This document shows positions 25,778 to 49,490 of a stretch of 50,709 nucleotides of DNA, in pieces. Both the position numbers and the translations under genes were made by a program. A model generated the notes under the pieces. The model made no database searches and was not told the DNA's origin. It saw only the letters and a program-made list of their open reading frames with translations. Source of the stretch: Bacteroidota bacterium (GTDB taxonomy: Bacteria; Spirochaetota; Spirochaetia; JABMQR01); the NCBI GenBank assembly GCA_013202335.1, contig JABMQR010000262.1, positions 1 through 50,709 of the forward strand, given 5' to 3'. Each line of letters starts with the position of its first letter. Position 1 is the first letter of the stretch.

Positions 25778-28516
25778 TTGAAGAAAAAAACTCTTTTTAT
25801 TGTTTCACATACACATTGGGATCGGGAATGGTATCTGAGAAAAGAAGAATTTCTCATGATGCTGATCGATCTGGTGGATAGGCTAATAGAAATTCTCGAG
25901 AATGATCCGGATTTCTCTGTGTTTATGCTGGATGGGCAGACAATTGCTTTAGAAGATTACTTATCTGTACGTCCGGATCGGAGAAATTGTATCAGAAAAT
26001 TTATTGAGGATAAGAGAATTCTTATAGGTCCCTGGTATGTTTTACCAGATGAGTACCTTATAAGTGGTGAAGGACATATCAGAAACTATATGATCGGGAA
26101 AGCTTTTTGTCGTGAAATGGGTAATCAGATGAATATTGGGTATCTTCCTGATTCGTTTGGACATCCTTCACAAATGCCTCAAATTCTAAAAGGGTTAGGG
26201 CTGAATGAAATTGTATTCTGGCGTGGTTTGAATGCCGATATCACTGAAACTGAACTGCAATGGACCGGCCTTGACGGTACCGAAATTCTTGGAATTAATT
26301 TGCCCTTTGGATATGGAATAGGCGCCTGTTTACCTCAAAATTCTGCAGATTTTATTGAGCGGGTTCGATTAGTGATCCAAAAACTTACTCCTTTAACACG
26401 GACCAATTCATTGCTTATGATGCAGGGCGTCGACCATGTTGCTCCCATGTACAATCTTCCAAAACTTTTGGAGCATTCACGTAAGGAAATTTGTGATGTT
26501 GAAATCGTTCATGGAAGCCTGGAGGAGTATTTGGAGTCTCTGCCCGAAGCTCATGAATACCAGAAAATTTGTGGTGAATTACGATCAGGATACAAAGCCT
26601 ATTTACTAGGTGGGACAATATCTACCCGGATGCAGCTGAAACAGGAGTGTTTCAAAAGGGAATCAGAATTAAGCCGTTATGCTGAGCCTCTATCTTCCCT
26701 TGTTTCAGCATTTACTAAAACTCCATACAGTAGAGATATGATATATCGTGCCTGGAAACTGTATCTCCAAAACATGCCCCATGACAGTATCTGCGGATGC
26801 AGCATTGATTCAGTACATGAAGAGATGCAGATTCGGTTTTCAGACTTGGGCGCAGTCAGCTCCTATGTACTGAACCACTGTTTTTCAGCTGTCGGGGTTA
26901 TTTTGAGGAGACCGGATGGTGATTTCGACGGTTATATTGCTGTTTTTAATCCAGAACCATATGTGCGGAGTAGAGATATAGTAATACTAGTTCTCAATTA
27001 TGAGCAGAAGCTGTTGAGAAAGGTAAACTATGTAACTGGCGAATTGGAGGAGAACTGTCCCGAACTGCTTGAACCCGAACCTGAAGGAGTTACCCTTTAC
27101 AATGATATTGGAGAAGAGTTCATAGGGAGAATAACAGGCTCGGAAGAGGCGGATGATATGCTGCTGTCACTGGATACTCAGCCGGAAATGTACAGAACCA
27201 GGAAATATACCGTGGAAGTTCCTGTGACTGAGACCCCAGCTATAGGTATTGCTGTGTACGGCTATAAATGGAATTTTGCAGTTATTGCCGAGAAAGGTGG
27301 CCACACCAACCGTATTGAAAATGAAGAGTATGTGATTGAGGCTCAAAATGGTCAGGGGTCAATCTATTTATATAACAAACGTACTTATGGAGGGACCAAA
27401 ACCAGACTTACATTTATCGATTCAGGTGATGCGGGAGATGAATATACCTATTCAGCACCCGTTGTTGATTCTGAAACGGCCTGGATAATTGAGAATGTGG
27501 ATGTTACCTATTCTCCGATCTCATCTACACTGGTGCTAAAAGGTTATCTGGATATACCAAAAGAACTTTCAGAAGATCGCAAATCGAGATTAACCGAAGT
27601 ATCCAGGTGCCCCCTTGTGACTGAGATTACACTTTACAATGGTATTTCCCGGATACAGGTTAATACGAAGTTTGAAAACCAGGTTGCAGATCATCGACTG
27701 CGGGCAATTTTACATATCGGGATTTCGGCTTCTGAAATACATGCTGAGGGGCTGTTTGGTGTGGATTCAAGACCAGTTGGTGATTCTGAGAAGCAGGGCT
27801 ATGAAGAATGGGTAGAGCCTCCATCAACTTATCCGCATAAAACCTTTGCAGCGGTCTCAGATAATAGGCAAAACTGTTGTCTTGCAAATCGTGGACTTCC
27901 TGAATATGAAGCCTGGAAGGATTGCGAGGGGGAAACAGTATTGGCTCTTACTCTAGTCCGTAGTGTTGGCTGGTTGTCACGCTATGATCTTAAGGCTAGA
28001 AAGGGGAACGGAGGATGGACTCTTGAAACTCCGGGAGCTCAATGCAGAGGGTCACACTATTTTGAATTCTCAATTTTTACCGGATTTAACAAACTGGATT
28101 TTGCAGCTGCGGCAATGCAGGCACATGCCTATGCCTATCCTTTGATAGGGCGGCAAATTGATGCCGACACGTATGATCTGGTGGGTGAAGAGCAGTCTGA
28201 TGTGAGGGAGAGGAGTTCAAAGCTATCTTTTTTTGAAGTTACAAATCCTGCAATTGTCCTTTCTGCATGTAAGAAGGAAGAGGCCGGCACAGATTTATTA
28301 CTGCGTTTTTATAATACAACCCCTGAGAAACAGACCTGTTCTGTGCTCTTTGGTGTGCCGGTTAAGGCTGTTTTTGAGACAGATTTGCAGGAGGTTGCTA
28401 AAGGTTGTATTAATAAATTACTGGATGTACATAATGGCAGCAGTTTTTTTCTTGAATTTTCTTCTTGGGAAATTATTACCGTCAAGGTGAAACTGGTATC
28501 AGGGATTGGTAACTGA
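25778..28516 (+). CDS. Glycoside hydrolase family 38 alpha-mannosidase
   Basis: A 912-residue cytosolic protein. Zinc ligands H13 and D15 are in SHTHWDREWY, and the nucleophile D125 is in GYLPDSFGHPSQMPQ. The HDSICGCSIDSVHEEM segment is the conserved helical-domain motif. GH38 enzymes hydrolyse alpha-mannosidic bonds with retention. I chose TTG 25778 because AGGA at 25767-25770 is 7 nt upstream and the HTHWD motif normally lies about 10 residues from the start. ATG 25688 would add 30 residues (LLYVCFRSCAYD) without a ribosome-binding site. Its TGA overlaps the ATG of the next gene by one base (TGATG), tightly coupling it to a URO-D family protein. Confidence 0.9.
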   Translation: MKKKTLFIVSHTHWDREWYLRKEEFLMMLIDLVDRLIEILENDPDFSVFMLDGQTIALEDYLSVRPDRRNCIRKFIEDKRILIGPWYVLPDEYLISGEGHIRNYMIGKAFCREMGNQMNIGYLPDSFGHPSQMPQILKGLGLNEIVFWRGLNADITETELQWTGLDGTEILGINLPFGYGIGACLPQNSADFIERVRLVIQKLTPLTRTNSLLMMQGVDHVAPMYNLPKLLEHSRKEICDVEIVHGSLEEYLESLPEAHEYQKICGELRSGYKAYLLGGTISTRMQLKQECFKRESELSRYAEPLSSLVSAFTKTPYSRDMIYRAWKLYLQNMPHDSICGCSIDSVHEEMQIRFSDLGAVSSYVLNHCFSAVGVILRRPDGDFDGYIAVFNPEPYVRSRDIVILVLNYEQKLLRKVNYVTGELEENCPELLEPEPEGVTLYNDIGEEFIGRITGSEEADDMLLSLDTQPEMYRTRKYTVEVPVTETPAIGIAVYGYKWNFAVIAEKGGHTNRIENEEYVIEAQNGQGSIYLYNKRTYGGTKTRLTFIDSGDAGDEYTYSAPVVDSETAWIIENVDVTYSPISSTLVLKGYLDIPKELSEDRKSRLTEVSRCPLVTEITLYNGISRIQVNTKFENQVADHRLRAILHIGISASEIHAEGLFGVDSRPVGDSEKQGYEEWVEPPSTYPHKTFAAVSDNRQNCCLANRGLPEYEAWKDCEGETVLALTLVRSVGWLSRYDLKARKGNGGWTLETPGAQCRGSHYFEFSIFTGFNKLDFAAAAMQAHAYAYPLIGRQIDADTYDLVGEEQSDVRERSSKLSFFEVTNPAIVLSACKKEEAGTDLLLRFYNTTPEKQTCSVLFGVPVKAVFETDLQEVAKGCINKLLDVHNGSSFFLEFSSWEIITVKVKLVSGIGN

Positions 28517-29607
28517 TGAAAGCAAAAGATCGTATGATGCTGGCTCTTAATCTTGAGATACCTGATAGACTCCCGGCTACAATTCACCAGTGGCAGCCAT
28601 ATCACCTCAATAAATATATGAAGGGCATGACGGATGTTGAAGCATTCAGTTCGGTAGGGCTGGATGCAGCAATTACATGGTATTCAGTTCAGAATGAATC
28701 CGGAGCGGATTGGAAAATTTCTGAGGAGCACAGAGAGGGTTCTGGTGATTATCGGGTCAGACATTTTTCTGTAAAGACTCCTGGAGGTGAATTGACATTT
28801 GCTCATGGAGAAAACCCCATGACTACCTGGGTAGTGGAACCCTTAATAAAGCGGGATGAAGATATCAATCTGATAAATAAGTATCGGCCCATTCCCACAT
28901 TTGATCGCCAGGGTTTTCTGGCTAAATATGATGAGCTGGGGGATGGAGGTATTATGAGAACCTTTATCTGGGGTTATCAGGGGGGCTGCTGGCAGGATGC
29001 CTGTGAGCTGTTTGGATTGGAAAACCTGATTTTGGCAACTTTTGACAAGCCTGAATGGGTACACGAGTTGTTACAGACGCTGCTCAAACAGAAAATTGCC
29101 TATATTGATAATAATTTGTGCAGATTGCCGGTTGATCTTGTGGAGACAGGCGGCGGTGCATCATCAAATACAGTTATTTCACCGGCTATTCATGAGGAAT
29201 TTTGTCTTCCTTACGATAGGATGCTGCATGATGCGCTGAAATCGCATGGGTTTAAGGTTGTGTACCATACCTGTGGGGGGATGAGCAGGATTTTGGACCA
29301 GATTGCACAGAATGGGGCGGATGCATCTGAAACTTTATCACCACCGGGTGTTGGAGGTGATTTGTCTGTTGAGTCTCTGGCTCAGATAAAAAAAGGTTTT
29401 GGATCTAAGCTGGCCCTAATCGGTGGAATTGACCAGATTAATGTGCTTTCAGCTTCGGACGAGGTGATTAAATGTGATGTGCAGGAGAAGTTCGAATGTC
29501 TCGGCCAGGGAGGCGGATTTATTATGTCAGCCTGTGACCATTTCTTCGATCTTCCAGTGGACAGGTTGGAATGCTATGCTCGTAAAGCCATTAGGTGCGA
29601 ATATTAA
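28516..29607 (+). CDS. URO-D/MtaA-superfamily protein with full HxC...C zinc motif
   Basis: A 363-residue (beta/alpha)8 protein of the uroporphyrinogen decarboxylase superfamily. It has H251-T-C253 in VVYHTCGGM and C340 in SACDHFF, the HxC...C pattern that binds zinc in the methylcobamide:thiol methyltransferases MtaA, MtbA and CmuA. It lacks the arginine-rich N-terminal RQAGRY loop of HemE, so haem synthesis is unlikely. The best reading is a zinc-dependent methyl or alkyl transferase; the acceptor and donor are unknown. It starts on the stop codon of GH38, and two more superfamily members follow. Its closest relative in the window is the protein at 45999. Confidence 0.85.
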   Translation: MKAKDRMMLALNLEIPDRLPATIHQWQPYHLNKYMKGMTDVEAFSSVGLDAAITWYSVQNESGADWKISEEHREGSGDYRVRHFSVKTPGGELTFAHGENPMTTWVVEPLIKRDEDINLINKYRPIPTFDRQGFLAKYDELGDGGIMRTFIWGYQGGCWQDACELFGLENLILATFDKPEWVHELLQTLLKQKIAYIDNNLCRLPVDLVETGGGASSNTVISPAIHEEFCLPYDRMLHDALKSHGFKVVYHTCGGMSRILDQIAQNGADASETLSPPGVGGDLSVESLAQIKKGFGSKLALIGGIDQINVLSASDEVIKCDVQEKFECLGQGGGFIMSACDHFFDLPVDRLECYARKAIRCEY

Positions 29608-29648
29608 TAGATATACTAAATGAAAACTGCAAATGTGGAAAAATGGAT

Positions 29649-30956
29649 ATGAATAAAATCAGTACTACTGACTACCGCCTGATACAGCAGCTTGCCCGGG
29701 AAGTGAAGCAGATCGCTGGGCAGGGGCGGTTCGAGGCCATGCGAAAAGAGTGGATTATGTTTAATGATTCAGAGGGCATTGGGAAAAAGCTTGCACCACG
29801 AGTCTTGATTTATCCCGATGATGATGGAGCATGGAAAGAGCTAATACCGACCTCATTACTGAAAGTTAAGCATCCATTCCTCCGTTCTATCGAATTCCAG
29901 CTGCGCCGGAAAATTTATAGAGATCAGCACTTTCATGACGATTTTGTAATAGAGCCGCTTATCCGCTACGATCTTACCGGTGACTATACCGGATACCATT
30001 ATGGTAATCACAACCAGAAAACAGCCTGGGGATTAGCAGTTCACGGAAAAGAATCACAGAACGAAGGAGGATCCTATGCGCTTGAAACAGAGTTTAATTC
30101 CCAGGTTGATATTGAAACCTTCTGCAGTCACAAACTGGATTTTATTGTTGATCAGGAAGAGGCTGAATGGAATCGGATGATTCTGGAAGATGCTGTTGGT
30201 GATATTCTGGAGATTGAAGCTGTTGTTCCTTATAGTGTGCTGGTATGCAGCCTCGTAATCGAACTTGTGCACGTTATGGGATACACCAATATGCTGATGA
30301 AGCTGATGGATGATCCTATTTTAATGCACCGCATCATGAACCATATGGCAAACCAAAAGAACCAGCTGCTGGAAAAAGTTGAACAGCAGGGATTGCTGCG
30401 TTTAAATAATCGTGATGACTGGACTGGCGCCGGTGGCGTGGGGTATTCGTCCAGGCTTTTAAAAGGTGAAGCAGGTGCTGATTCATCACATAATAAAGTG
30501 AAATTATCGCATCTATGGGGATTTGCCGATGCTCAGGAATATTCTGATGTGTCCGTGGATATGTGGCGGGAATTTGCCTTTTACTACCAGGCTCCTCTGC
30601 TCAGGAAATTCGGGTATTCGAGTTATGGATGCTGTGAAAAGCTGGACGGCCGCTATGAAGATATATTTTCCAATCTACCGAATTTAAAACGGGTTTCTGT
30701 CAGCCCATGGGCGAATATATATGAAGCTGCAGATTTTTTGAAAAATACAAAATATATCTATTCAAGGAAACCCAACCCAGTGGATATAACGGATAATTTT
30801 AATGAAGAGAACTACCGGAATGGGCTTAAAGAAATGCTGGAACTTACGCGGGACTGCAATGTTGAATTTATCTTAAAAGATCTCAGAACATGCCGCGGCA
30901 ATCCTGAAAACTTACACCGTTGGGTCGATATTACCCAGGAAATGGCCAAGAGGTAG
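29649..30956 (+). CDS. Divergent URO-D-superfamily-like protein with GCC motif
   Basis: A 435-residue protein, longer than its neighbours. Where the others carry HxC or HxD it has SYGCCEKLDG (Y326-G-C328-C329), followed by LPNLKRVSVSPWANI, where the protein chain matches the strand pattern of the URO-D barrel. A late cysteine is in LKDLRTCRGNP. The two or three cysteines could hold a metal. The fold assignment is from pattern and context, so it is less certain than for the preceding gene. ATG 29649 is preferred over 29643 because GGAA at 29637-29640 then has 8-nt spacing. Confidence 0.65.
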   Translation: MNKISTTDYRLIQQLAREVKQIAGQGRFEAMRKEWIMFNDSEGIGKKLAPRVLIYPDDDGAWKELIPTSLLKVKHPFLRSIEFQLRRKIYRDQHFHDDFVIEPLIRYDLTGDYTGYHYGNHNQKTAWGLAVHGKESQNEGGSYALETEFNSQVDIETFCSHKLDFIVDQEEAEWNRMILEDAVGDILEIEAVVPYSVLVCSLVIELVHVMGYTNMLMKLMDDPILMHRIMNHMANQKNQLLEKVEQQGLLRLNNRDDWTGAGGVGYSSRLLKGEAGADSSHNKVKLSHLWGFADAQEYSDVSVDMWREFAFYYQAPLLRKFGYSSYGCCEKLDGRYEDIFSNLPNLKRVSVSPWANIYEAADFLKNTKYIYSRKPNPVDITDNFNEENYRNGLKEMLELTRDCNVEFILKDLRTCRGNPENLHRWVDITQEMAKR

Positions 30957-30971
30957 CATAAGGACATTTGG

Positions 30972-32012
30972 ATGAATACTATACTTATACAAAAAAAAGA
31001 GGCATATACATCGTTTTGGCAAAATGGGACACCGTTGATTGTCAATGGCTTGCAAACAGGAACCGGTTTCGAGGATGGTTTTATCCCAGCCCCGGGGATG
31101 CTCTATTACGAAACGGATACATATTTGCAGCATCTCCTTGAAATCCGCAGTAAACTCCATTTACGCGGAGATACGCTTCCCCTGGTCGATACAGATCTGG
31201 GTCCAGGATCTCTGGCTGTCTATTTAGGCTCTGAGCCGGTACGGGAAGAGGCCACAATATGGTTCAAGAAAATGGATGAAGATATACACAGCATTGAGAT
31301 TATCCAATCATTTGTGTCTTCCTGGTGGGAGAAAAGTCTCAAAACTCTCCAAAAAGCGGTTGATGTGTTAAAAGGTGAGTTTATTGTCCCGATGCCCGAT
31401 CTTGTTGAGAATTGGGATGTCCTTGCATCCCTCATAGGAACAGAAAATCTATTGATGCTGATGCTTAAGGCTCCGGATTTGGTGTTGGCAAGAATTAATG
31501 CTATTAATCAAGCTTATTTTGCCGCCTATGATGCTATATATCAGTTAACTGCACCCAATAATGGAGGCGGAGCATTTCATGCCTTCCAGCTGTGGTCACC
31601 AGGAAAAGTAGCTAAGCTGCAATGTGATGGTTCAGTTATGTTTTCAAAATCGATGTTTGATGAGTTTGTCCTGCCGTCATTAACAGCACAGGCTAAATGG
31701 TTGGATAATTCTATCTATCATCTTGATGGAACCCAGGCTGTTCATCACCTTGATTCCCTACTGGAAATTAAAGAATTGGATGCGATTGAGTGGACCCCGC
31801 AAACTGGAATTGAGGATGGCATTAATCCGCGCTGGTATGATATGTTCCGTAAAATTCTCAGTTCTGGAAAGAAGCTGCAGGTCCTGGTGACTGAACCTGA
31901 GTATATTGAACAATTTTGCTGTGAAATTGGTAAAAAAAACATCTTTTTTCTCTGCTTTCTTCCTGACTTTCAATTTTGCAAGGTGCTTGATGTTGTTGCT
32001 GGTAAACAATAA
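30972..32012 (+). CDS. URO-D-superfamily protein, HLDG subgroup
   Basis: A 346-residue protein. H250-L-D252 in SIYHLDGTQAVHHLD replaces the zinc HxC motif, followed by LLEIKELDAIEWTPQTG. The same arrangement occurs in the protein at 38172 (YHLDGPGALTHLDTLLDIKELDAVQW is its counterpart segment), so the two are paralogues. No cysteine ligand is evident, so this subgroup may bind a different metal or act without one. It follows the preceding gene by 15 nt and is the third superfamily member in a row. Confidence 0.7.
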   Translation: MNTILIQKKEAYTSFWQNGTPLIVNGLQTGTGFEDGFIPAPGMLYYETDTYLQHLLEIRSKLHLRGDTLPLVDTDLGPGSLAVYLGSEPVREEATIWFKKMDEDIHSIEIIQSFVSSWWEKSLKTLQKAVDVLKGEFIVPMPDLVENWDVLASLIGTENLLMLMLKAPDLVLARINAINQAYFAAYDAIYQLTAPNNGGGAFHAFQLWSPGKVAKLQCDGSVMFSKSMFDEFVLPSLTAQAKWLDNSIYHLDGTQAVHHLDSLLEIKELDAIEWTPQTGIEDGINPRWYDMFRKILSSGKKLQVLVTEPEYIEQFCCEIGKKNIFFLCFLPDFQFCKVLDVVAGKQ

Positions 32013-32345: not shown

Positions 32346-33701
32346 ATGAAAATAGTACTATTCGGTGCCGGAAGTGCCCAGTTCGGGTACGGCATGCTGG
32401 GAGATATGTTCCAGAGTGAAATTCTTGCAGGCTCTGAGATTACTTTGATGGATATAAATTCTGAAGCGCTTGGGAAGGTGTATAATACTGCCCGGGAGTA
32501 TATAAAAACTAATAATCTCCCGTTTACCGTCAGTGCGACAACTGATAGAAAAAAGGCTCTGGAAGAAGCGGATCATGTGCTGATATCTATTGAAATAGGT
32601 GACAGGTTTGCATTGTGGGAAGAGGACTGGTCAGTACCCCAGCAGTACGGTATTCGACAGGTGTATGGTGAGAATGGCGGCCCCGGTGGTTTATTTCATG
32701 CCCTGAGGATTATACCACCTATTTTAGAGATATGCGGTGATGCAGTTGAAATTTGCCCTGATGCACATATATTCTGCTATTCCAACCCGATGACGGCGAT
32801 TACAACAGCCGTCTACCGTAAATTCCCTGGTATTAAATTTTATGGAATGTGCCATGAGGTTGCCTCACTCGAAAGATATCTCCCGTCAATTCTGGATACT
32901 TCTTTTAGTAACCTTGAACTCCGGTCTGCCGGTCTGAATCATTTCGGTGTTCTGGTTGAAGCAAAGTATAAAGATACCGGTAAAGATGCTTATCCTGATA
33001 TTCTCAGAAAAGCACCGGACTTTTTTGAGAAGGAGCCCGGCTACAGCTCTGTTTGGGAGTATGTTCAGAGAACGGGAAAAATACCTGAAACGGAAGGTTC
33101 ACGGGAGCGGTTTCTCGAAGCAGGGACAGCAATTAAACCCTGGGCTGACCGTGGACTGTTTAAAGTGATTCTTGAGAACTTCAACCTTTTTCCGATTACT
33201 GTCGACAGTCATCTGGGTGAATATATCCCATGGGCTTACGATGCTGTGGATCATAAAGGAATTGTTGATTTTTTTGCATTTTATAAGCATGCACTTGCAA
33301 ATATCAATCCGGTTATTACCCGCGAAAGGCAGGAAAGAGCTGTCTACATGATAGAGGGTATGATTACCGATTCACGTTATGAAGAGGTAGCGGTAAATAT
33401 CCCAAATAAAGGGTTTATTCCCGGACTGCCGGAAGATGCAGTCGTAGAAGTTCCTGCGATGGTTGATGCCTCCGGTGTGACGGGTATAGCATTTCCGGAC
33501 TATCCAAAAGCATTCGGTGCTCTGCTCAGGAACTATACCGGTGTCTATGATCTTACCGCAGATGCAGTATTAACAGGAGACAAAGAGCTTGTTAAACAGG
33601 CGATTCTGGTGAATCCGCTGGTGACTGAATGGAGACGGGTAGAAGAGCTGGTTGATGTAATGCTGGATAAACAGAAAAAGTGGCTTGGGTATATACGATA
33701 G
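32346..33701 (+). CDS. Glycoside hydrolase family 4 protein (NAD- and Mn-dependent)
   Basis: A 451-residue member of GH4, which cleaves glycosides by transient oxidation at C3 with NAD+ and a divalent metal. The dinucleotide site is IVLFGAGSAQFGYGML at the N-terminus. The metal ligands Cys and His are in FYGMCHEV and another His in SAGLNHFGVL. The asparagine in CYSNPMTA is also conserved. GH4 includes alpha-glucosidases, alpha-galactosidases, alpha-glucuronidases, alpha-galacturonidases and 6-phospho-glycosidases. No phosphotransferase genes are nearby, so an unphosphorylated substrate is likely. Last gene of the plus-strand cluster; a hairpin array follows. Confidence 0.9.
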   Translation: MKIVLFGAGSAQFGYGMLGDMFQSEILAGSEITLMDINSEALGKVYNTAREYIKTNNLPFTVSATTDRKKALEEADHVLISIEIGDRFALWEEDWSVPQQYGIRQVYGENGGPGGLFHALRIIPPILEICGDAVEICPDAHIFCYSNPMTAITTAVYRKFPGIKFYGMCHEVASLERYLPSILDTSFSNLELRSAGLNHFGVLVEAKYKDTGKDAYPDILRKAPDFFEKEPGYSSVWEYVQRTGKIPETEGSRERFLEAGTAIKPWADRGLFKVILENFNLFPITVDSHLGEYIPWAYDAVDHKGIVDFFAFYKHALANINPVITRERQERAVYMIEGMITDSRYEEVAVNIPNKGFIPGLPEDAVVEVPAMVDASGVTGIAFPDYPKAFGALLRNYTGVYDLTADAVLTGDKELVKQAILVNPLVTEWRRVEELVDVMLDKQKKWLGYIR

Positions 33702-33942: not shown

Positions 33943-34794
33943 CTACTCTGTTGTTTCAGCTGTTATCTTCTCCCGGTATGCTGTTGGTGAGTATCCGAAA
34001 TACTTTCTGAAAGCCCGGGAGAAGTAGAGAGGATCGGGAAATCCCAATTGATATGCTGCCTCCTTTATGGGTTTCTCCGGATGCTCAACCAGAAGATGTT
34101 TCGCCTTCTTCATACATATCTGTTCCCGCATTGCAGAAAAAGAGATGCCTGTATCTTCTTTGAATTTATGCCGCAGACGGCTTTCACTCTTGCCGGCAAT
34201 ACCTGCAGCTTGGGCTAAAGAAATCCTCAGATTCGATTCATTCATATATTCTATTACATTCTGAACACACGAGCTCTCTCTTTTTTGAATCATATGCTTC
34301 AGATTGATAAGATCTGTCAGGCTGGAAAAAAGGGAAATAATACTATTAGTTTTATCGGAATCAAAGCGAGGTATCTGTGTAAAAGCACAAATTACTTTTT
34401 CCCGGACCCCCAATTTTTCAGAATCCTGCAGAACAGATAAAGGGATTTTTTTTTCACTGGTGAATTGACCTATCATAATAAAACCAGTGAGGGTTTCTCC
34501 TTCAAATAATGGCTTTACCGCTTCGGTACATCCACCATGGCACCTGTAGGTTTGAAGAGTTTTCGTCTTTTTTGCTGCATTAAGTACCGCATGGTCAAGC
34601 GCAAGACACTTATCATGATATCCTAATACATCCCGCATCATTCTGCAGCAAGGTGATATCCCCGCGTTATGCCCAACTTTGTATTCACTGCCGTCCGGAA
34701 GGAAGTAGGCAATTCTGACAGAAAAAACAGATGAGAAATTGTCAAGAATTTTTAATAGTTCCGGTTTCAGGATGATTGATGGTTGGTTTCCCAA
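33943..34794 (-). CDS. AraC-family regulator with N-terminal PocR sensor domain
   Basis: A 283-residue regulator. Residues about 8-170 match the PocR domain: cysteine-containing segments SPCCRMMRDVLGYHDKCLALD and TYRCHGGCTEAVKPL are typical, and the domain is thought to sense small metabolites. The AraC double HTH is at about 185-278 (LAQAAGIAGKSESRLRHKF and EAAYQLGFPDPLYFSRAFRK). The start is TTG 34794 with GGGAG about 7 nt upstream on the minus strand. It is divergent from the URO-D gene at 34928, across 133 nt, and is the obvious candidate to control it. Confidence 0.9.
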   Translation of the reverse strand: MGNQPSIILKPELLKILDNFSSVFSVRIAYFLPDGSEYKVGHNAGISPCCRMMRDVLGYHDKCLALDHAVLNAAKKTKTLQTYRCHGGCTEAVKPLFEGETLTGFIMIGQFTSEKKIPLSVLQDSEKLGVREKVICAFTQIPRFDSDKTNSIISLFSSLTDLINLKHMIQKRESSCVQNVIEYMNESNLRISLAQAAGIAGKSESRLRHKFKEDTGISFSAMREQICMKKAKHLLVEHPEKPIKEAAYQLGFPDPLYFSRAFRKYFGYSPTAYREKITAETTE

Positions 34795-36541: not shown

Positions 36542-36544
36542 CTG

Positions 36545-36883: not shown

Positions 36884-36898
36884 GAACTCCTCCATATC

Positions 36899-39260: not shown

Positions 39261-39335
39261 AACATACTCCTGCAAGCAGTATCACCTGAAACCGGGTATT
39301 TTGAAAGTGTTAATTTTGTTGTAGTATGTGGACAA

Positions 39336-41305: not shown

Positions 41306-42139
41306 ATGGCAACTCCAAAAAAAAAATTAATAGAATGCTGCATCTCATTATCTCATTCAGGATTATCTGAAGATCTTTTTTTTATTCAAGTGCTTGATGG
41401 TATTGTCAAAACCTGTGAAAACACAGGATATCATCTCGTATTAAATACACTCTCCGCTAATTCTCCGACAAGTTTGAGAGATGATTTTACAGGAATATCC
41501 GGGGTGATTCTTATAAATCCTCTTTCTGACCACTCATTGATTGACAAATTAAATGCATCAAAAATCCCCTTTGTTGTTATAGGTACACCGGAAATACAGG
41601 AAGACGTATTCTCTGTTGATATTGATGTAGTAGGGGCTGCTTATCAGGTGTCACACTATTTGATAGCAAAAGGTCATAGCAACATCTGCTATATCAACAG
41701 CCCCGGCGATTATATGCATAGCAATCAATATAAAAGGGGCTTCAAGCTCGCCCATCATGAGAGTCAGGTCCCCTGGTTCGAAAAAAACTATTCAGAACAA
41801 CACGTTACCTCAGAAGCTGGTTACCAGGAGACCGAAAAAATATTACATACATTTCCGGAATGTACAGCCATTGTCACCACCAATGAAACTGTTGCAAAGG
41901 GTGTTCTGGATAAATTGCACGAAGCCAGAATCCGTATACCTAAAAAAATGGCTGTGATGAGTATGGGCGGAACCCCGGTTGGTTATCTTTATAAACCTGG
42001 AATTACAACCATTGATTATTCATCGATAACATTAGGTACCGTTGCTGCTGATCTTCTTGTTGAAGTAATTTCAAAAAAAAGAATACGCCCAAGCCATCTA
42101 CTGCTGCCTACGCAACTGATTGAACGGGAAACAACTTAA
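41306..42139 (+). CDS. LacI-type sensor domain without DNA-binding HTH
   Basis: A 277-residue protein made almost only of a LacI/GalR-like periplasmic-binding-protein fold (LACI-type motifs GVILINPL, VGAAYQVSHYLIAKGHSNIC, ITTIDYSSITLGTVAADLLV). It starts directly at the first strand (KKKLIECCISLSHS) and lacks both the HTH and the hinge. There is no signal peptide, so it should be cytosolic. AAGGA at 41292-41296 precedes ATG 41306. The upstream 121 nt are shared with a divergent gene, leaving no room for a lost HTH. It could sense a ligand and act through a protein partner. Confidence 0.8.
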   Translation: MATPKKKLIECCISLSHSGLSEDLFFIQVLDGIVKTCENTGYHLVLNTLSANSPTSLRDDFTGISGVILINPLSDHSLIDKLNASKIPFVVIGTPEIQEDVFSVDIDVVGAAYQVSHYLIAKGHSNICYINSPGDYMHSNQYKRGFKLAHHESQVPWFEKNYSEQHVTSEAGYQETEKILHTFPECTAIVTTNETVAKGVLDKLHEARIRIPKKMAVMSMGGTPVGYLYKPGITTIDYSSITLGTVAADLLVEVISKKRIRPSHLLLPTQLIERETT

Positions 42140-42146: not shown

Positions 42147-43445
42147 TTATTGACACTCCTTTTTTAGTCCCTCTTCCAAAATATCAAGCGATGTATGCAT
42201 TTGGTCTGAAGTTATGGTTAATGGCGGACAAATCCTGTTGGGGACAAGGCGAAGCCCATGTTTCATACAATAGAGATACACCCTGTTCCATGCTTCATTA
42301 TCAACCTCTTTGGTAATCTTGTCTTTTACCAGTTCAATTCCCCAAAGCAGACCCTTTCCCCGTACATCACCAACAGATTTGTATTTTTCAGGCCAGGAAG
42401 AGATTCTCTCTTCAATTTCTTTTCCTCTTTCCGCCGCATTGTGGATTAGCTGTTCATCTTCCATAACTTCCATAGTTCCCATCGCTGCGGCAACTGATAA
42501 TGGATTTCCACCGAAGCTGGTACTGGACCCGCCGCCTCCTGCTGCTCCGTAGGGGTATGCGGACATGATCTCTTTTTTCCCGCCGACAACCATGACGGGG
42601 AAACCACTTCCCAGCCCTTTTCCGAAAGTTGTTATATCCGGTTCTACATCAAAATGCTCAATAGCTAAAAATTTTCCAGTCCGTCCAACTCCGGTTAATA
42701 CTTCATCTGAAATTATCAGTATGTCTTTTTCTCTGCAGATTTCCGCAAGCCGTTTCCATGCACCTGGGGGTGGGACGATGATTCCCCCCGCTCCTGCGAT
42801 CGGTTCAAAAATTACTGCAGAAATTTCCTCTGTTCCGCTTCCCTGAATCAGGTCAAATGATGCCTCTATACAGGCAAGTCCGCACTCCGGATGTTTCAGT
42901 TTCATTGGGCAGCGGTAGCAGTCGGGATAGTGCAGGCGTGTTACATTTACTGCCGGACCAAACTCTTTTGGCAGCAGGTAGGATCCCAGGCTTCTGGTTA
43001 ATAGGGTTCTTCCATGGTAAGCGTGTGTCATTGCTGCATAGAACCAGCGTTTGTTATAGCTGCTTGCTGCGCGTAATGCAGCTTCAACAGTTATTGATCC
43101 TTCGCAGTAAAAAGCAAAAGTATCGATATCTTTCGGCATATGTTCTGTCAATTTTTGACAGAGTTCGGCCCTTTCCGGTGTTGGGAATGCGTATACATGC
43201 CAAAGCTTTTCGGCCTGCTCTTTCAGTTTACTTACGAGTTTTGGATGGCAGTGGCCGGTTGATGAGGTAAGTATTCCTGCTGAGAAGTCGAGGTATTTAT
43301 TGCCGTCTACATCATAAATGTATACACCTTCTCCTCTGTCAAATACTAAAGGCAGACTGTCAGCGATGTTTGATCTTCCGGAGATAACAAATTCAATATC
43401 CTTATCCCATAACTCTTTCGATTTAGGTCCTGGTAAATTATACAT
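42147..43445 (-). CDS. Class III PLP-dependent aminotransferase
   Basis: A 432-residue transaminase of the GABA/ornithine type (aminotransferase class III). The PLP lysine is K276 in TTFGKGLGSGFPV, and the conserved aspartate is in ILIISDEVLTGVGRTG. The cofactor-phosphate region is around YCEGSITVEAA, where GABA transaminases read NSGSEA..EA. An insert with four cysteines (PDCYRCPMKLKHPECGLAC) resembles that of GabT-like enzymes. AAGGAG precedes ATG 43445, 11 nt after the stop of the methyltransferase gene, so the two form an operon. The likely substrate is an omega-amino acid released or formed by the partner enzyme. Confidence 0.88.
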   Translation of the reverse strand: MYNLPGPKSKELWDKDIEFVISGRSNIADSLPLVFDRGEGVYIYDVDGNKYLDFSAGILTSSTGHCHPKLVSKLKEQAEKLWHVYAFPTPERAELCQKLTEHMPKDIDTFAFYCEGSITVEAALRAASSYNKRWFYAAMTHAYHGRTLLTRSLGSYLLPKEFGPAVNVTRLHYPDCYRCPMKLKHPECGLACIEASFDLIQGSGTEEISAVIFEPIAGAGGIIVPPPGAWKRLAEICREKDILIISDEVLTGVGRTGKFLAIEHFDVEPDITTFGKGLGSGFPVMVVGGKKEIMSAYPYGAAGGGGSSTSFGGNPLSVAAAMGTMEVMEDEQLIHNAAERGKEIEERISSWPEKYKSVGDVRGKGLLWGIELVKDKITKEVDNEAWNRVYLYCMKHGLRLVPNRICPPLTITSDQMHTSLDILEEGLKKECQ

Positions 43446-43456
43446 AGTACCGCTCC

Positions 43457-44893
43457 TTACAAATTTCTTTCTTTTAGTTCACATGCATATAATGTGTCGA
43501 TTTCACGGCATACTGCCGAATCTCTGCTATATAGTGGGGTTTCAGTAATAATTTTTTCTGCTTCTTCTTCTGCCAGATCGACCAGAGTTTTTATTTCACC
43601 CTGACCTATGTTTGAAGTTTTAGGAATAAATAATTCCGATCTGAAATTATCGAAGGTATGGTCTGCGTCAAGAAAGTGACCGCCGATACCACGTTCTTTT
43701 ATTAAATCAACACAAAGAGACTCTTCTGTTACTTCTATCCCTTTCAGAAAGTGAGCTGCCCAGTCAAAGGCTTCCATATCCAGGCATGCCTGTGTCGGAG
43801 AGCAGATTAAACCTGCACCCAGTTGTCCGACAGAAGGATATACGCAGTTTGCTAAGGTTGTCACCGCTACCTTCATTGCTCTTTCGTATCCACTTTGATA
43901 AGAGGGGTAGGAAGCATCTATATAATCGGTAGGTGCGAGTAGTGGAATGTCATAGTAGGTGCTGTAAAGCTGAGCCATGCCAACGTCCTGCAAAACTGCA
44001 TCAGGGGTGGAAAAATTCGCGCCTCCGTTTCTCATATCTAAAATACCGCTTAACATAATATGTTCCTGCGCACTTTCGCAGGCAACTGCATCGAGGGCAG
44101 TGATCATCCCGAGGATTTCTGCGTTAGCGATGAGTAGAGCTGAAGCTATGGTAACCGGTGCTGTAGCACCTGCCAAAGGCATCGGTGCCAGACCCAGGGG
44201 CATCTTTCTTTCTGCCAGTGTATAGAGGACATCTGCTGTTTCGAATCCAATTTTCAAAGGAGAAATTGTGCATCTTACACACAGAAAAGAGTCCTTTTTT
44301 TGATTATTTCCAATTATTTCATTCAGTTTTTCAGCGTAGAGTACATCCCGACGGGAGTCGATTTCAGCTACACCCGGTTTAGCGCAGTGTTTTGCTAAAT
44401 AGGTCATTCCTGCCAGCAGTCGCTGATTGGCGGAAATTTCATTTTCATTCTCATCGTACGCCATTTGAACAGGCGGGCCGCCGACGGATAAGATGCGGGG
44501 ATGCCCGTTGCCAAATCTAACCATTCGTTCTAAATCAGCATATTTGGCAATACGTGTGCTTTTCCTGTCAGATCCGTTTACGTATAGGGCGGTGCCGCCA
44601 AAGTTAAACATGAGTGGTTTTACCGGGCGCTCCAGTAATACTTCCTGCGCTGGATTATGGTGAAGAAGCGCTTTTTTTCCCGAGGTTTTTTTGACTGCAT
44701 CGTGAACAAGTTTCCGGGGGAATTTTGCGGTACGGTGGGTATAATCAATTTCAGCTCCGACCGCTTCAAGTTTATGCAGGAAGCCGTCATGATCAATGTA
44801 CAATCCTGTTTCAGCCAGGATATCCAGTGTACGTTCATGAAGTGTTTCCATTTCATGGGGTTCCAGGAGGAGCAGTGGTCTTATTTTTTTCAT
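43457..44893 (-). CDS. MttB-superfamily methyltransferase, non-pyrrolysine
   Basis: A 478-residue member of the trimethylamine methyltransferase (MttB) family. Features include the opening PLLLLEPHEMETLHERTLDI, HNPAQEVLL and NFGGTALYV, and the glycine-rich MPLAGATAPVTIASALL. It has no in-frame amber codon in the barrel and ends at TAA, so it is one of the many homologues without pyrrolysine. Characterised non-pyrrolysine members demethylate quaternary amines (glycine betaine, proline betaine, carnitine) onto a corrinoid protein. No corrinoid protein or activase is seen in this window. A palindromic operator-like site lies just upstream, shared with a divergent LacI gene. Confidence 0.9.
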   Translation of the reverse strand: MKKIRPLLLLEPHEMETLHERTLDILAETGLYIDHDGFLHKLEAVGAEIDYTHRTAKFPRKLVHDAVKKTSGKKALLHHNPAQEVLLERPVKPLMFNFGGTALYVNGSDRKSTRIAKYADLERMVRFGNGHPRILSVGGPPVQMAYDENENEISANQRLLAGMTYLAKHCAKPGVAEIDSRRDVLYAEKLNEIIGNNQKKDSFLCVRCTISPLKIGFETADVLYTLAERKMPLGLAPMPLAGATAPVTIASALLIANAEILGMITALDAVACESAQEHIMLSGILDMRNGGANFSTPDAVLQDVGMAQLYSTYYDIPLLAPTDYIDASYPSYQSGYERAMKVAVTTLANCVYPSVGQLGAGLICSPTQACLDMEAFDWAAHFLKGIEVTEESLCVDLIKERGIGGHFLDADHTFDNFRSELFIPKTSNIGQGEIKTLVDLAEEEAEKIITETPLYSRDSAVCREIDTLYACELKERNL

Positions 44894-45032: not shown

Positions 45033-45998
45033 ATGAAAAAAAACATTACAATGGATATTATTGCTAAAAAAGCCGGCGTATCAAAAAGTACGGTCTCGTA
45101 TGTACTTTCCGGGAAAAAGAAACTCAGTGAATCAGTGAAAGCGAAAGTTCTTAATACAGCTGAAGAGTTGGGCTATCGTCCACAGAAGGTGGCTCCTGAA
45201 CTATTTTTGGACCAAGTTCGGCGTATACGGCTGGAAATTGATCAAACGCAATTATCAAATGATTCAGCGGTCTGCAGGCAAGAAATTATCCGGGGAATAA
45301 TGAATCAGCTTGCCGGTACAAACTATGAATTATGTTTATCACCGCATCCGGAAAAACTTACTCAGGCAGATACTGATTCTTTACAGGGAATTATTTCAGT
45401 TTTTCGGGAGAAATTGATTGCGGTCACATCTGCCGGTACAGAGTTTTTAAACCATCTTCCTACCGTCTATATAGGTCGTCATGATGGAGAAATGCAATCA
45501 TTTTTGATTGATGCTGATGGTCTGGGGGCCGGGTATCAGGCCGCTTCATGGGTTCTCAGGAGAGATGCTAAGCGGGTTCTTTTTGTCAAAGACCAGGATT
45601 GGCCGCTCTGGTGTGAGCAGTATGAAAGTGGATTTCAGATGGCCTGTGAGGAGAATAAGAATTCACGGTTGAATGAAGATTTTATTTCTATTGAATCTTC
45701 ATCAGAAATTATATCTATTATTAATCAAAGTAAGCCTTTTGATGCAATAATCGTTCCATCGAACAGTATGGCAAATCAGTTGACTTATCATCCTTTGTGT
45801 CAACAGTCGACAGTTCTCTCTATGAAACAGTTTCCGGATATGCTGCAGTCTGATACCCCTCACCATCATCCAGGGACTGTTTTTCCTGCATATGAAATGG
45901 GTAAAGAGGCGGCTGCGATGCTTTTGGGTATTATTTCCAAACAGCGGGTAGCGCACAACTCAGTAATTATTTCCTGCGACTTTAACGAAGGGGTATAA
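45033..45998 (+). CDS. LacI-family transcriptional regulator
   Basis: A 321-residue regulator with a clear HTH (TMDIIAKKAGVSKSTVSYVL, residues 6-25) and the LSGKKKLSESVKAKVL extension. The sensor domain is somewhat divergent and about 15-20 residues shorter than the family norm. It is divergent from the methyltransferase-aminotransferase operon and directly abuts the next URO-D gene (stop TAA, then ATG with no gap). It therefore probably regulates both sides. Confidence 0.92.
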   Translation: MKKNITMDIIAKKAGVSKSTVSYVLSGKKKLSESVKAKVLNTAEELGYRPQKVAPELFLDQVRRIRLEIDQTQLSNDSAVCRQEIIRGIMNQLAGTNYELCLSPHPEKLTQADTDSLQGIISVFREKLIAVTSAGTEFLNHLPTVYIGRHDGEMQSFLIDADGLGAGYQAASWVLRRDAKRVLFVKDQDWPLWCEQYESGFQMACEENKNSRLNEDFISIESSSEIISIINQSKPFDAIIVPSNSMANQLTYHPLCQQSTVLSMKQFPDMLQSDTPHHHPGTVFPAYEMGKEAAAMLLGIISKQRVAHNSVIISCDFNEGV

Positions 45999-47162
45999 AT
46001 GGAGACTAAGACAAGAATGCTTACTGCCCTCGATATGGGGGTTCCCGATCGACTTCCCTGCACCACACACGAAATAATCCCATTCTTTCTTGATTCCTGC
46101 GTTGACGGGATTTCGGAATCTGAGTTTTTCGATAAATTTCAGCTGGATAAAACTATCTGGTTAAATCCCCTGCGGGCGCTTAATGGGGTGGGTGCCGGTG
46201 TCGGTGTTGGGGAGAAGGTTTCTCCGATAGAAAATTTGTATCAGCCATTTATTGAGACCGGGGAATGGAAACTTCAGTCTGAATCTGTTTCACAATCCGG
46301 ACGTACCGGAGTTAGGTATACAATCAGTACACCGATAAAAGATTTAACCATGATCCTGGAAAGTAATGAATATACTTCATGGATAAGTGAACCTCTTATA
46401 AAAGAGCCCAAAGATATTGATCTCATTGCTCAATATGCACCATCCCAGACCTGTGATGCTGAGAAAGTGCGTTCTGCTGCGTCAACAGCTGGAGACTCTG
46501 CAATAATAAGGGGTATGATTCCAGGATTTGAAATCAATGGGCAGCCTGGATGCTGGCAGGATGCAGCCTGTTTGTTTGGGATTGAGAAACTTATCTATAA
46601 AACATTTGATGATCCGGCTTGGGTAAAAACTTTGCTCTCAATTTTGCAAAAACGGAAACTCACCTATGTCGATTCACTTAGAGACAGCGGCTATGATCTT
46701 GTTGAACTGGGTGGTGGAGATGCCTCTACAACGGTTATCTCACCGGCAATTTTCAGAGAATTTGCAGCTCCTTACGACACGCCTATAGTAGAAAAAGTTA
46801 GAGAACAGGGAATTCGGGTCACCTACCATACGTGTGGAGGGATGATGCCTATTCTGGAAGATATTGCTGAGATGGGAGTTTCGGCTATGGAGACTTTTAC
46901 TCCCCCGGGGATGGGAGGGGATGTCGATTTGGCCGAAGCAAAAAAGCGTATCGGGGATAGAGTTTGTCTTATCGGTGGATTTGATCAAGGTTATTTTTTC
47001 ACAAAGGCTACGGAGGCTGAAGTGGAAAAAGAGGTTATTCGGTGTTTTAAAGCTGCCGGGGAAAACGGGGGATTCATTCTTACGCCTTCTGATCATTTTT
47101 TTACTGCTGATCCGAAGCTGTTAACGGCTTATTCCCGGGCTGCCAAAAACTGTACCTACTAA
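45999..47162 (+). CDS. URO-D/MtaA-superfamily protein, HxC with late Cys replaced by Ser
   Basis: A 387-residue protein, paralogue of the one at 28516. Shared segments include PDRLP, GCWQDA, TVISPAI and YHTCGGM. H277-T-C279 is kept, but the late ligand position is S364 in LTPSDHFF, where the paralogue has C340 in SACDHFF. Loss of this zinc ligand suggests altered metal binding or catalysis. It begins right after the LacI stop codon with AAGGGG as ribosome-binding site. The C-terminus (SRAAKNCTY) has another cysteine that could substitute. Confidence 0.85.
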   Translation: METKTRMLTALDMGVPDRLPCTTHEIIPFFLDSCVDGISESEFFDKFQLDKTIWLNPLRALNGVGAGVGVGEKVSPIENLYQPFIETGEWKLQSESVSQSGRTGVRYTISTPIKDLTMILESNEYTSWISEPLIKEPKDIDLIAQYAPSQTCDAEKVRSAASTAGDSAIIRGMIPGFEINGQPGCWQDAACLFGIEKLIYKTFDDPAWVKTLLSILQKRKLTYVDSLRDSGYDLVELGGGDASTTVISPAIFREFAAPYDTPIVEKVREQGIRVTYHTCGGMMPILEDIAEMGVSAMETFTPPGMGGDVDLAEAKKRIGDRVCLIGGFDQGYFFTKATEAEVEKEVIRCFKAAGENGGFILTPSDHFFTADPKLLTAYSRAAKNCTY

Positions 47163-47232
47163 TCATGTGGCATTACTTTTCTGTGTAAAATTCCATATTA
47201 AAGGTTTAAGTAAAATTAAGTAATAATAACTG

Positions 47233-47260
47233 TTGATAATTATTAAAAATGGTTTACAAT
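47233..47260 (+). promoter_or_regulatory. Predicted promoter of the last URO-D pair
   Basis: TTGATA at 47233-47238 and TACAAT at 47255-47260 with a 16-nt spacer. A palindrome lies 12 nt downstream. Confidence 0.55.
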
Positions 47261-47272
47261 ATTGCATATAAG

Positions 47273-47286
47273 CTTAAAGCTTTAAG
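47273..47286. promoter_or_regulatory. Operator-like 14-bp palindrome
   Basis: CTTAAAGCTTTAAG is perfectly symmetric and sits just after the predicted -10 box, near the transcription start. A likely binding site for the LacI encoded downstream at 49507. Confidence 0.6.
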
Positions 47287-47312
47287 TAATATATGATTTT
47301 GAGGGAGAGGAC

Positions 47313-47326
47313 AGGTGTATACACCT
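47313..47326. promoter_or_regulatory. Perfect palindrome spanning the GTG start codon
   Basis: AGGTGTATACACCT is symmetric and contains the GTG start at 47315-47317. It shares the GGTGTA/TACACC half-site with the ends of the dyad at 7291-7323. It could be a regulator site or an RNA element hiding the start codon. Confidence 0.5.
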
Positions 47327-48460
47327 AAACAACGCATGCTGAATGCCTATAAGGGTATAATCTCTGATAGATATCCTGTAGCACCGGAGTTCTGGTACCT
47401 CTATCCGGCAAAAGTCCTGGGTGTGAGCATGATGGAATTTGAACGTGAAATTCCATTCTGGAAATCACTACAGCAAATCTTTACGATGCATAAGACCGAA
47501 GGGTGGGGAGCTGCATTCCCGCAGGTACATAATCCTGATTTGGAGAAGGAGATCTCTTTAAAGAAGACTGAAGGATCCCAATATCTCGAAACAACCAAGA
47601 TGCGGTTTAAAGGTACCCCTTTTGAGAAATCGAAAATCTTTGATGAAAACGAACCATCGTGGGTTAAGCAGCACGTTGTTAAAGAGACTAATGATTTAGA
47701 ACCGGCCTTGGAAATGGAGCTGTCACACAAAAATGAGTTTGATTTTAGCCAGGTTAATAAAGCGCATAAAGGTGTAGGAGAAGATTACCTTCTTGAAATG
47801 TGGATGGGTACTCCGTTTTTTGATTTTCTGGCTGAGATGATGGGGTTTGAAGATGCGGTAATGATGTTTGCAATGGGAGATGTTAAGAAAATTGAAGGAA
47901 TCAGAGAGAGGTTTATAAATTACCAAAAGCGGTTTGTTCGTGAAGTCTGCAAACATACTGAATTTGAATCATTCGTTATAGGCTGTTCCTATTCCTGTAA
48001 TTCCTTAATCGGGCCGAATATGTGGAGACAATGGGACAAACCGTATATTGAGGCTATGGCCAGGGAAATTCATAAACAGGGGAAACTTCTTCACATTCAC
48101 TTTCACGGCAGATCGATGGAGACGGTAAAAGATTTTGCTGAGATCGGGATTGACTGTGTCTGTCCTTTTGAGAGAGGACCAGGTGGCGATGTTGATGGAC
48201 TTGCAGGGTTGAAGCAGGTTCGCCTACTCTTAGATGATAAAGTTACCATGAACGGCAATGTACATACTGTTGAGACCCTGATAAGGGGTGGGGTTACGGA
48301 TGTTATTCGTGAAGTTCAGGAGATAAAAGAGGCCTTTAACGGTTCTCCAAGACTTATAATTGGAACGGGAGACCAGGTAGGCAGGGAAACTCCGGAAGAG
48401 AATATTGAAGCTATGATAGAAGAGGCAAAAAAAACAGGTGGTAAATATGACAAAAGTTGA
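47315..48460 (+). CDS. URO-D-superfamily protein, HxH variant
   Basis: A 381-residue protein. The metal-motif position reads H262-F-H264 in LHIHFHGRSMETV, and the chain then gives VTMNGNVHTVETLIRGG and LIIGTGDQVGRETPEEN. The N-terminus TPKQRMLNAYKGIISDRYPV is the usual superfamily opening. It starts with GTG 47315 after GAGGGAGAGG. A histidine-rich site could bind a metal without thiolate. The end overlaps the next gene by 14 nt. In context it is the first gene of a three-gene unit with a LacI regulator. Confidence 0.8.
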   Translation: MYTPKQRMLNAYKGIISDRYPVAPEFWYLYPAKVLGVSMMEFEREIPFWKSLQQIFTMHKTEGWGAAFPQVHNPDLEKEISLKKTEGSQYLETTKMRFKGTPFEKSKIFDENEPSWVKQHVVKETNDLEPALEMELSHKNEFDFSQVNKAHKGVGEDYLLEMWMGTPFFDFLAEMMGFEDAVMMFAMGDVKKIEGIRERFINYQKRFVREVCKHTEFESFVIGCSYSCNSLIGPNMWRQWDKPYIEAMAREIHKQGKLLHIHFHGRSMETVKDFAEIGIDCVCPFERGPGGDVDGLAGLKQVRLLLDDKVTMNGNVHTVETLIRGGVTDVIREVQEIKEAFNGSPRLIIGTGDQVGRETPEENIEAMIEEAKKTGGKYDKS

Positions 48461-49490
48461 AAGAATGACAGCAGCTATCAATCATCAGGAAGCAGATAAA
48501 GTTCCCAAAGGGGAGATCTGTATTGAAGGTTTAATTGCAAATAAACTACTGGGTTCCGATTATCCTCTCGACTACCAGCATTATACCAGGGATAAAAAGA
48601 TACGGGAGTTGCTGCATATGGACTTTATTAATGCAGGGGACTGGCCGGCAGATGAGATTGGCAAAGATGGAAATGGAAATACCTTGTATAGAAGTATTTA
48701 TGGCTATGAATTTGCCACTAATGGTGTGAGTAGGCATATTACGAAGCCTCCTCTGGATAACATTGAAGATGCGGAAAAATATCCTGTTCCGGATAGTAAA
48801 AAAGTGTCCGGTGCATTAATAAAAAAATACCGGGAAACAACCGATCTCTATGTAATGGGACAGATTGGCGGTCCGGTCAGCATGCTGGATGAGATGTTCG
48901 AAATGGAAGATTATATGGTCTACACCATGACGAACACTGCTGAGATGAGAATTCTTGGTGAGAAAATCATGGAGCATGAAATAGCAAAAGCAAAGCTGTT
49001 TATTGATAATGGTGCACATGCTGTTCTGGTTGCTGATGATATTGCATTTAACTCCGGCCTTTTCCTGCCTCCTCATATCATGCATGAAATTGTCTATCCG
49101 TTCTATAAAATTGCTGTTCAGGAGATAAAAACACACAAGAACGTTCCGGTCATTTTCCATTCTGACGGATATCTCATGGATGCTCTGGATATCATTGTAG
49201 AGTGTGGATTTGCTGGAATTCAATCCATACAACCTTCAGCAGGTATGGATATACGTGAAGTAAAAAGAAGGTATGGGAAAGACCTCTGCCTGATTGGTAA
49301 TATTGATCTTGATCAGGTAATGACTTTCGCTTCACCTGAAGAGGTTGAGCGGGTGGTGAAGGAGACAATTGATATCGCAGCACCCGGCGGCGGCTTTATT
49401 TTAAGTACCTGTAATACACTGATAAATGCTATTCCTCCTGAAAATGCTCTTGCAATGTATGAGACTGCAGAGTCTTATGGCGTTTATTAA
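48447..49490 (+). CDS. URO-D-superfamily protein, H(T/S)DG subgroup with late Cys
   Basis: A 347-residue protein, paralogue of the one at 40258. H238-S-D240 is in VIFHSDGYLMDAL, and C322 is in ILSTCNTLINAIPPEN, where the paralogue has serine. I chose ATG 48447 because AGGTGG at 48436-48441 is 5 nt upstream; the GTG at 48438 overlaps that site. It overlaps the end of the previous gene by 14 nt, and a LacI gene follows 16 nt after its stop. Confidence 0.85.
   Translation: MTKVERMTAAINHQEADKVPKGEICIEGLIANKLLGSDYPLDYQHYTRDKKIRELLHMDFINAGDWPADEIGKDGNGNTLYRSIYGYEFATNGVSRHITKPPLDNIEDAEKYPVPDSKKVSGALIKKYRETTDLYVMGQIGGPVSMLDEMFEMEDYMVYTMTNTAEMRILGEKIMEHEIAKAKLFIDNGAHAVLVADDIAFNSGLFLPPHIMHEIVYPFYKIAVQEIKTHKNVPVIFHSDGYLMDALDIIVECGFAGIQSIQPSAGMDIREVKRRYGKDLCLIGNIDLDQVMTFASPEEVERVVKETIDIAAPGGGFILSTCNTLINAIPPENALAMYETAESYGVY

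Follow-up and report, generated by a model that had tools for sequence, protein, structure and literature searches.

Why should one bacterium carry ten divergent proteins of the uroporphyrinogen decarboxylase (URO-D) superfamily within about 21 kb, and what do these proteins do? The question is raised by contig JABMQR010000262.1 of assembly GCA_013202335.1, labelled a Bacteroidota bacterium and placed by GTDB in the Spirochaetota. The whole stretch that was analysed, all 50,709 nucleotides of it, is called the window below; 37 of its proteins were scanned by domain searches, and genes and motif positions are named by gene start coordinate (Table 1). We consider it likely that the ten are substrate-specific corrinoid methyltransferases (first methyltransferases, MT1), the 'spokes' of a system whose corrinoid protein lies elsewhere. 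This is the best reading because of their fold, their link to the reductive activase RACo and the runs that their relatives form with corrinoid proteins. They are probably O-demethylases, several of them for glycan-linked substrates.

All ten proteins have the URO-D fold: seven pass the curated PF01208 cut-off, 29649 and 30972 give structure models that match those of URO-D/MtaA, and 38172 follows by its homology to 30972. The superfamily membership proposed by an earlier, sequence-only reading of this DNA therefore stands for all ten, with the profile search bearing it out for seven and finding no match in 29649, 30972 and 38172. Among solved structures, MtaA matches the 30972 model best; as Protein Data Bank sequence searches with 30972 alone, 29649 alone or profile A1 gave no convincing match, the fold of 30972 and 29649 rests on the models. 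The coenzyme M methyltransferases MtaA/MtbA (4ay7; TIGR01463, PRK06252) share the fold and are the best curated match of the seven Pfam-positive proteins, for all of which TIGR01463 or PRK06252 scores above hemE. However, the TIGR01463 scores are 33.5-79.1 bits, none of the ten reaches the MtaA/CmuA cut-off of 235.4 bits (best 79.1), and the HxC..C zinc site is mostly not retained. A HemE-like role, which the earlier reading had also set aside, is rejected on the TIGR01464 scores (0/10 over the cut-off of 302.95 bits, best 33.1) together with the lack, in the seven Pfam-positive proteins, of the RQAGR-type loop that 5/5 HemE rows carry. Finally, 29649 and 30972/38172 represent two large families without Pfam hits, whose relatives mostly have no listed name or are called 'hypothetical protein'; a search of IMG/VR with 30972 found no relative.

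A physical tie of all three window classes (Pfam-positive URO-D, 29649-type and 30972-type) to a corrinoid protein is found in another phylum, in an Armatimonadota locus (L058). There, a run of ~13 kb on one strand (L058:7614-20724) reads corrinoid protein, MtaB, 30972-type, URO-D, 29649-type, unassigned, three URO-D, unassigned, URO-D and 30972-type, making two 30972-type, one 29649-type and five URO-D genes. The 30972 type also adjoins a corrinoid protein in three further loci: it follows the corrinoid gene (NCBIfam) by 66 bases in L046; it lies 99 bases from it in L018, in a run of 30972-type, corrinoid protein, homocysteine S-methyltransferase (PF02574), DUF1638 and RACo; and it ends a run of corrinoid protein, URO-D and homocysteine S-methyltransferase (PF02574) in L050. 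In L065, RACo, a corrinoid protein, a URO-D::thioredoxin fusion and CobW are followed by a divergent URO-D gene and a 30972-type gene beside GH127. This spirochaete-like hub sits in a Lysobacterales record, by transfer or through a mis-binned contig. These loci belong to the best 80 of 234 confirmed 30972-type loci, taken from named genome records; the 80 are mostly from Verrucomicrobia, Planctomycetes, Lentisphaerae, Chloroflexi and Armatimonadetes, with one spirochaete. Of the 77 genomes with a 30972-type gene that are distinct by record prefix, 50 were tested for RACo, and 46 of these had it. When all 80 loci (1,205,912 bases) were scanned in six frames, 6 proved to contain a corrinoid protein, 3 contained RACo and 24 contained additional URO-D frames; in 11 of the 80 a URO-D frame lies no more than 200 bases from the 30972-type frame on the same strand, like 37105/38172.

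The activase link was followed in 392 Spirochaetota genomes, of which 131 have URO-D and 87 have RACo. RACo is present in 29 of 30 genomes with at least eight first-look URO-D candidates versus 58 of 362 others (Fisher p 4e-20, on first-look numbers, for which at most five candidates were scored per genome, and uncorrected for kinship). Full counts, which take in HemE where present and hub fusions, cover 13 genomes: G147 60, G310 26, G163 25, G001 23, G224 15, G361 14, G374 12, G261 11, G349 11, G370 8, G329 6, G327 3 and G357 0. The expansion is thus not peculiar to the window; other Spirochaetota carry more copies, up to 60. Eight of the genomes have a single corrinoid protein other than MetH-like frames (those of ~770 codons or more, mostly with a pterin-binding match), namely G147, G001, G224, G361, G374, G261, G370 and G327, with 60, 23, 15, 14, 12, 11, 8 and 3 URO-D matches, respectively. 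G147, the one with the most URO-D matches, has one RACo match and no MttB match. Sharing of one hub is not general, since other expanded genomes have many corrinoid proteins. As to a tetrahydrofolate route by PF00809 enzymes, this family has only one match, in a MetH-length frame, in the expanded genomes G224, G261, G329, G370 and G376, none in G144 and further matches in others of the 30 expanded genomes; MtrH (PF02007) was not searched.

As for the host itself, the UvrD protein of the window is 68% identical to that of G327, 64% to that of G224 and 61% to that of G357, the best of the 392 genomes. G224, which also encodes homologues of 40258, 45999 and 47315, has a single RACo and a single non-MetH corrinoid protein, as does G327; URO-D and RACo are both missing from G357, but one 354-codon frame there has a B12-binding match. 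From G224 and G327, both of which have a corrinoid protein and an activase, we infer that the window's own host has such a hub.

In G224 the hub is a run of RACo, a PocR-AraC regulator, an MtgC-like corrinoid protein, the URO-D::thioredoxin fusion (L128:3982-5328), CobW, a protein like the MetH activation domain, and ROK. Its fusion protein is identical to a database entry that one source assigns to a Sphaerochaetaceae bacterium. Here and elsewhere, corrinoid, RACo, fusion and CobW genes were called by our own BLAST queries and profiles, with Pfam or NCBIfam on a part. By BLAST, G370, G261 and G325 have the same set of RACo, PocR-AraC, corrinoid protein, fusion and CobW. RACo stands at the end in G374; G349 and G361 have the RACo/PocR/corrinoid part separate from the fusion/CobW part; in G329 and G144 the fusion was seen without a corrinoid part in the stretch taken; and it was not seen in stretches from G212, G147, G163, G245 and G310. 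The stretches were picked by long URO-D frames or corrinoid/RACo matches and are not a survey. A scan placed a cobalamin riboswitch 5' of the corrinoid gene in three of four hub loci (L128, L141, L143) and found none in the fourth (L136), in the window or in L058. A PocR-AraC regulator is common to the window (33943) and the G224 hub run. Among the matches listed, FFVCG[ND]A, PGCD and CxxC are present in 120/120 relatives of the fusion (G224's own included) and HxCG in 0/120; because no relative has HxCG, the zinc site of the fusion, if any, would lack the MtaA histidine. The fusion is likely to be the second methyltransferase (MT2).

The metal-site position is as diversified as the sequence-only reading had it: HxC is kept in three proteins (28516, 34928 and 45999), five have HxD, one has HFH, and the register of 29649 is unsettled. 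In an alignment of the seven Pfam-positive proteins the MtaA-type third ligand (PGC/PAC) is missing from most. In 28516 a cysteine lies one column off, and a one-residue gap would restore the register; 48447 has a cysteine at the same offset, but HSD replaces HxC. His-Cys-Cys is thus complete in 28516 at most, and 30972/38172 read HLD. Among the matches listed, HLDG is retained in 119/120 relatives of 30972 and YGCCE in 116/119 relatives of 29649, for which reason both motifs look, by their conservation, like working sites of distinct families and not like decayed HxC. S-methyltransferases of the superfamily are reported to keep His-Cys-Cys, whereas in O-methyltransferases the cysteine is replaced by a carboxylate or lost (PMC10418091); CdmB is reported to be zinc-independent (PMC13222342).

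We propose that each spoke would bind its own methylated substrate in the URO-D barrel, and that the methyl acceptor would be a corrinoid protein in its cob(I) form, with its gene elsewhere. Most spokes would activate the substrate at a site with hard ligands (HxD), or at one that is not a complete zinc-thiolate site, as would be expected of O-demethylases. The corrinoid protein, RACo and, in this lineage, the fusion as likely MT2 would form the shared hub; in runs of the L018/L050 type the methyl acceptor may be homocysteine. As to substrate, several spokes adjoin glycoside hydrolases and LacI/AraC/PocR regulators, which makes O-methylated sugars or glycan-borne methyl groups the likeliest substrates of the sugar-flanked spokes. 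5' of the GH38 gene lie genes for an oligopeptide-type ABC transporter, a beta-helix protein, GH2, DUF2961, GH127 and GH65, and a LacI gene. Near the homologues of 40258 and 47315 in G224, no more than ~5 kb away, lie ADH, Gfo/Idh, GH38, PfkB and melibiase genes (among 20 selected neighbour proteins annotated there, six had no Pfam hit and two were the TRAP transporter DctM). In its full form, the proposal is of dozens of URO-D-fold demethylases in three classes, two of them Pfam-less, many in sugar regulons, serving one corrinoid protein that is emptied by the fusion, with its FVC..C site and CxxC domain, instead of by a tetrahydrofolate (H4folate) methyltransferase, while adjacent 30972-type/URO-D pairs form heterodimers; taken whole, this scheme is tentative and we would put it on the doubtful side.

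Several observations weigh against a corrinoid role. Domain searches of 37 window proteins turned up no corrinoid (B12-binding) protein, no activase and no pterin-type MT2, and the host is only presumed to have a hub. The genomes behind the RACo co-occurrence are not independent, and no match to RACo was found in G376, which is among the expanded ones. B12-binding matches are numerous in G068 (18), G004 (12), G040 (9) and G087 (8), with 34 scored MttB matches each in G004 and G068. The 46/50 figure for RACo stands without a background RACo rate for the phyla concerned, and 74 of the 80 loci have no corrinoid protein in the stretch scanned. The link to sugars rests on gene neighbourhood only, and some URO-D genes of G224 adjoin TRAP transporters, an enolase-superfamily gene or DUF362.

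Among other explanations, the one that survives best is that the ten are lyases, epimerases or decarboxylases that act on sugar acids without a cofactor, and whose HxD sites could carry out acid-base chemistry in glycan breakdown without B12. HemE, the classic member of the family, decarboxylates in its URO-D barrel without cofactor or metal. The lack of any B12 gene in the window scan fits such enzymes, as does the position of the 28516-30972 run after the GH2, GH127, GH65 and GH38 genes and before GH4. So does a first neighbour survey of 30972-type genes (97 of 113 neighbour proteins, 16 shorter ones omitted, from 59 of the 80 loci), in which GH31 is the commonest non-URO-D family (8/97). 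PhyH oxygenases, 6/97 in that survey, are unexplained and odd beside an oxygen-sensitive cob(I) system. However, neither the co-occurrence with RACo nor the corrinoid runs would be expected of B12-free enzymes, and the MtaA-type profiles outscore hemE throughout the Pfam-positive proteins; we regard this explanation as unlikely.

It is also quite improbable that the proteins demethylate aromatics or haloalkanes in the manner of Mto, Mtv and Cdm and have nothing to do with the adjoining sugar genes. Cdm, MtvB, OdmB, VdmB and MtoB are UroD-superfamily MT1s that transfer methyl groups to a corrinoid protein, methoxylated aromatics and chloromethane are known substrates of such enzymes, and paralogues occur in A. 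dehalogenans (PMC13222342). Yet sugar genes flank the window genes and two of their G224 homologues, the tree being without known O-demethylases.

Thiol or selenol methyltransferases scavenging methyl-sulfur or methyl-selenium, as in type 1 mlp clusters, are very unlikely: the three HxC proteins, the possible third cysteine of 28516 and the two cysteines kept by the relatives' fusion protein speak for them, but type 1 Mlps are reported to be invariably His-Cys-Cys (several Mlps1 excepted) and to cluster with a corrinoid protein and RACE (PMC10418091), neither of which is among the 37 proteins scanned, and the reading is weakened because five of the ten have HxD and at most one His-Cys-Cys. The link to C1 metabolism that the sequence alone had suggested is supported as one to corrinoid C1 chemistry, drawn from related genomes and not from the window; its thiol-methyltransferase part is not supported.

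28516 and 45999, earlier listed as a paralogue pair, are not recent local duplicates. In our tree (long branches are W37105, L058 u1-u3 and G126_0, which may not belong; MtvB, MtoB, CdmB and CmuA were left out) 28516 clusters with the fourth URO-D protein of the Armatimonadota run, in the starred clade, and 45999 with a protein of G224 (Sphaerochaetaceae). A recent tandem duplication was rejected because the nearest tree relatives sit in other genomes; judged from the tree, the pair is an old split. 40258 and 48447 join at 93/65 only.

The genes concerned and their neighbours are collected in Table 1. Gaps within the run 28516-29649-30972 are 41 and 15 bases. The separate regulators noted from the sequence alone are confirmed, several being local and of PocR-AraC, AraC and LacI types; 45999, 47315 and 48447 are flanked by LacI genes, one before and one after. 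The MttB-superfamily gene is a possible further methyltransferase of another fold, and its pair with the aminotransferase gene (42147-44893) perhaps serves an N-methyl substrate. A PadR gene and a HAAS-like gene (below cut-off) lie between URO-D genes at 35969-36895.

Table 1. URO-D-fold genes of the window and neighbouring genes.
Feature	Coordinates	Strand	Motif and context	Supporting match
URO-D protein	28516..29607	+	HTC; Cys near third ligand position; first of 28516-29649-30972 run	PF01208 70 bits; 48% identity to L058 u4, starred clade
29649-type URO-D-fold protein	29649..30956	+	YGCCE motif	family without Pfam hits
30972-type URO-D-fold protein	30972..32012	+	HLDG motif	family without Pfam hits
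URO-D protein	34928..35926	+	HSC; divergent from PocR-AraC regulator	PF01208 82 bits
URO-D protein	37105..38175	-	HMD; 4-base overlap with 38172	PF01208 43 bits
Second 30972-type protein	38172..39275	-	HLDG	28% to 30972, E 2.7e-22; no Pfam
Short URO-D protein	40258..41184	-	HTD	PF01208 92 bits; 57% to L132:12539 (G224)
URO-D protein	45999..47162	+	HTC; without Cys near third ligand position	PF01208 86 bits; 49% to L128:12952 (G224)
URO-D protein	47315..48460	+	HFH	PF01208 64 bits; 46% to L132:14563 (G224)
URO-D protein	48447..49490	+	HSD	PF01208 110 bits; MtaA 4ay7 E 2e-8
GH38 gene	25688..28516	+	last gene of glycan run; 1-base overlap with 28516	PF01074 E 7e-36
GH4 gene	32346..33701	+	333 bases downstream of 30972	PF02056 E 7e-46
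PocR-AraC regulator	33943..34794	-	divergent from 34928	PF10114 + PF12833
AraC regulator	39336..40199	+	divergent from 38172/37105 pair	
LacI-type sugar-binding protein, no helix-turn-helix (HTH) match	41306..42139	+	divergent from 40258	
Class III aminotransferase	42147..43445	-	11 bases after MttB gene	PF00202 E 3.5e-94
MttB-superfamily protein	43457..44893	-	without in-frame stop	PF06253 E 8e-51; trimeth_pyl 203 bits, cut-off 525
LacI-HTH gene	45033..45998	+	ends directly before 45999	
LacI regulator	49426..50520	+	after 48447; start may be further in	

UroD-superfamily corrinoid MT1s, genomes with several such paralogues and mlp clusters are already known. Type 1 mlp clusters resemble the present case in that some of their hosts have no H4folate methyltransferase, but such a cluster has at most three Mlps, which are orthologous and have His-Cys-Cys in nearly every case (PMC10418091), whereas the ten proteins of the window are divergent, fall into three classes and mostly lack His-Cys-Cys, and their genes lie with sugar genes but with no corrinoid gene. 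The Cdm/Mto systems share the UroD-superfamily MT1, the independence of Cdm from zinc and the occurrence of several paralogues per genome (PMC13222342, PMC8630106); the clusters described for them pair a corrinoid gene with one MT1 gene or two, in contrast to hub genomes with up to 60 URO-D matches for one corrinoid protein. Split methionine synthase and MtgBCDE (PMC12478193) offer a likeness in the MtgC-like corrinoid protein, in shared modules and in the PF02574 gene of the L018 and L050 runs, but there the donor enzyme is of the MttB type and here of the URO-D type. As far as our literature searches show, it is new that two Pfam-less families are tied to corrinoid chemistry, and so are the number of spokes per hub and the conservation of the URO-D::thioredoxin hub. 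Among the titles and abstract starts listed, with subscription papers mostly outside, these searches showed nothing on a spirochaete URO-D expansion, a URO-D-thioredoxin fusion or corrinoid sugar demethylation, which is weak evidence of absence.

To our knowledge, few routes for the removal of O-methyl groups outside aromatics have been characterised in anaerobes. If our interpretation is true, spirochaetes and degraders of the Verrucomicrobiota/Planctomycetota type would possess many B12-dependent demethylases that are as yet unassigned, two big Pfam-less families among them. Owing to the hub design, a single purified corrinoid protein together with a single activase would then be enough to test dozens of enzymes for their specificity.

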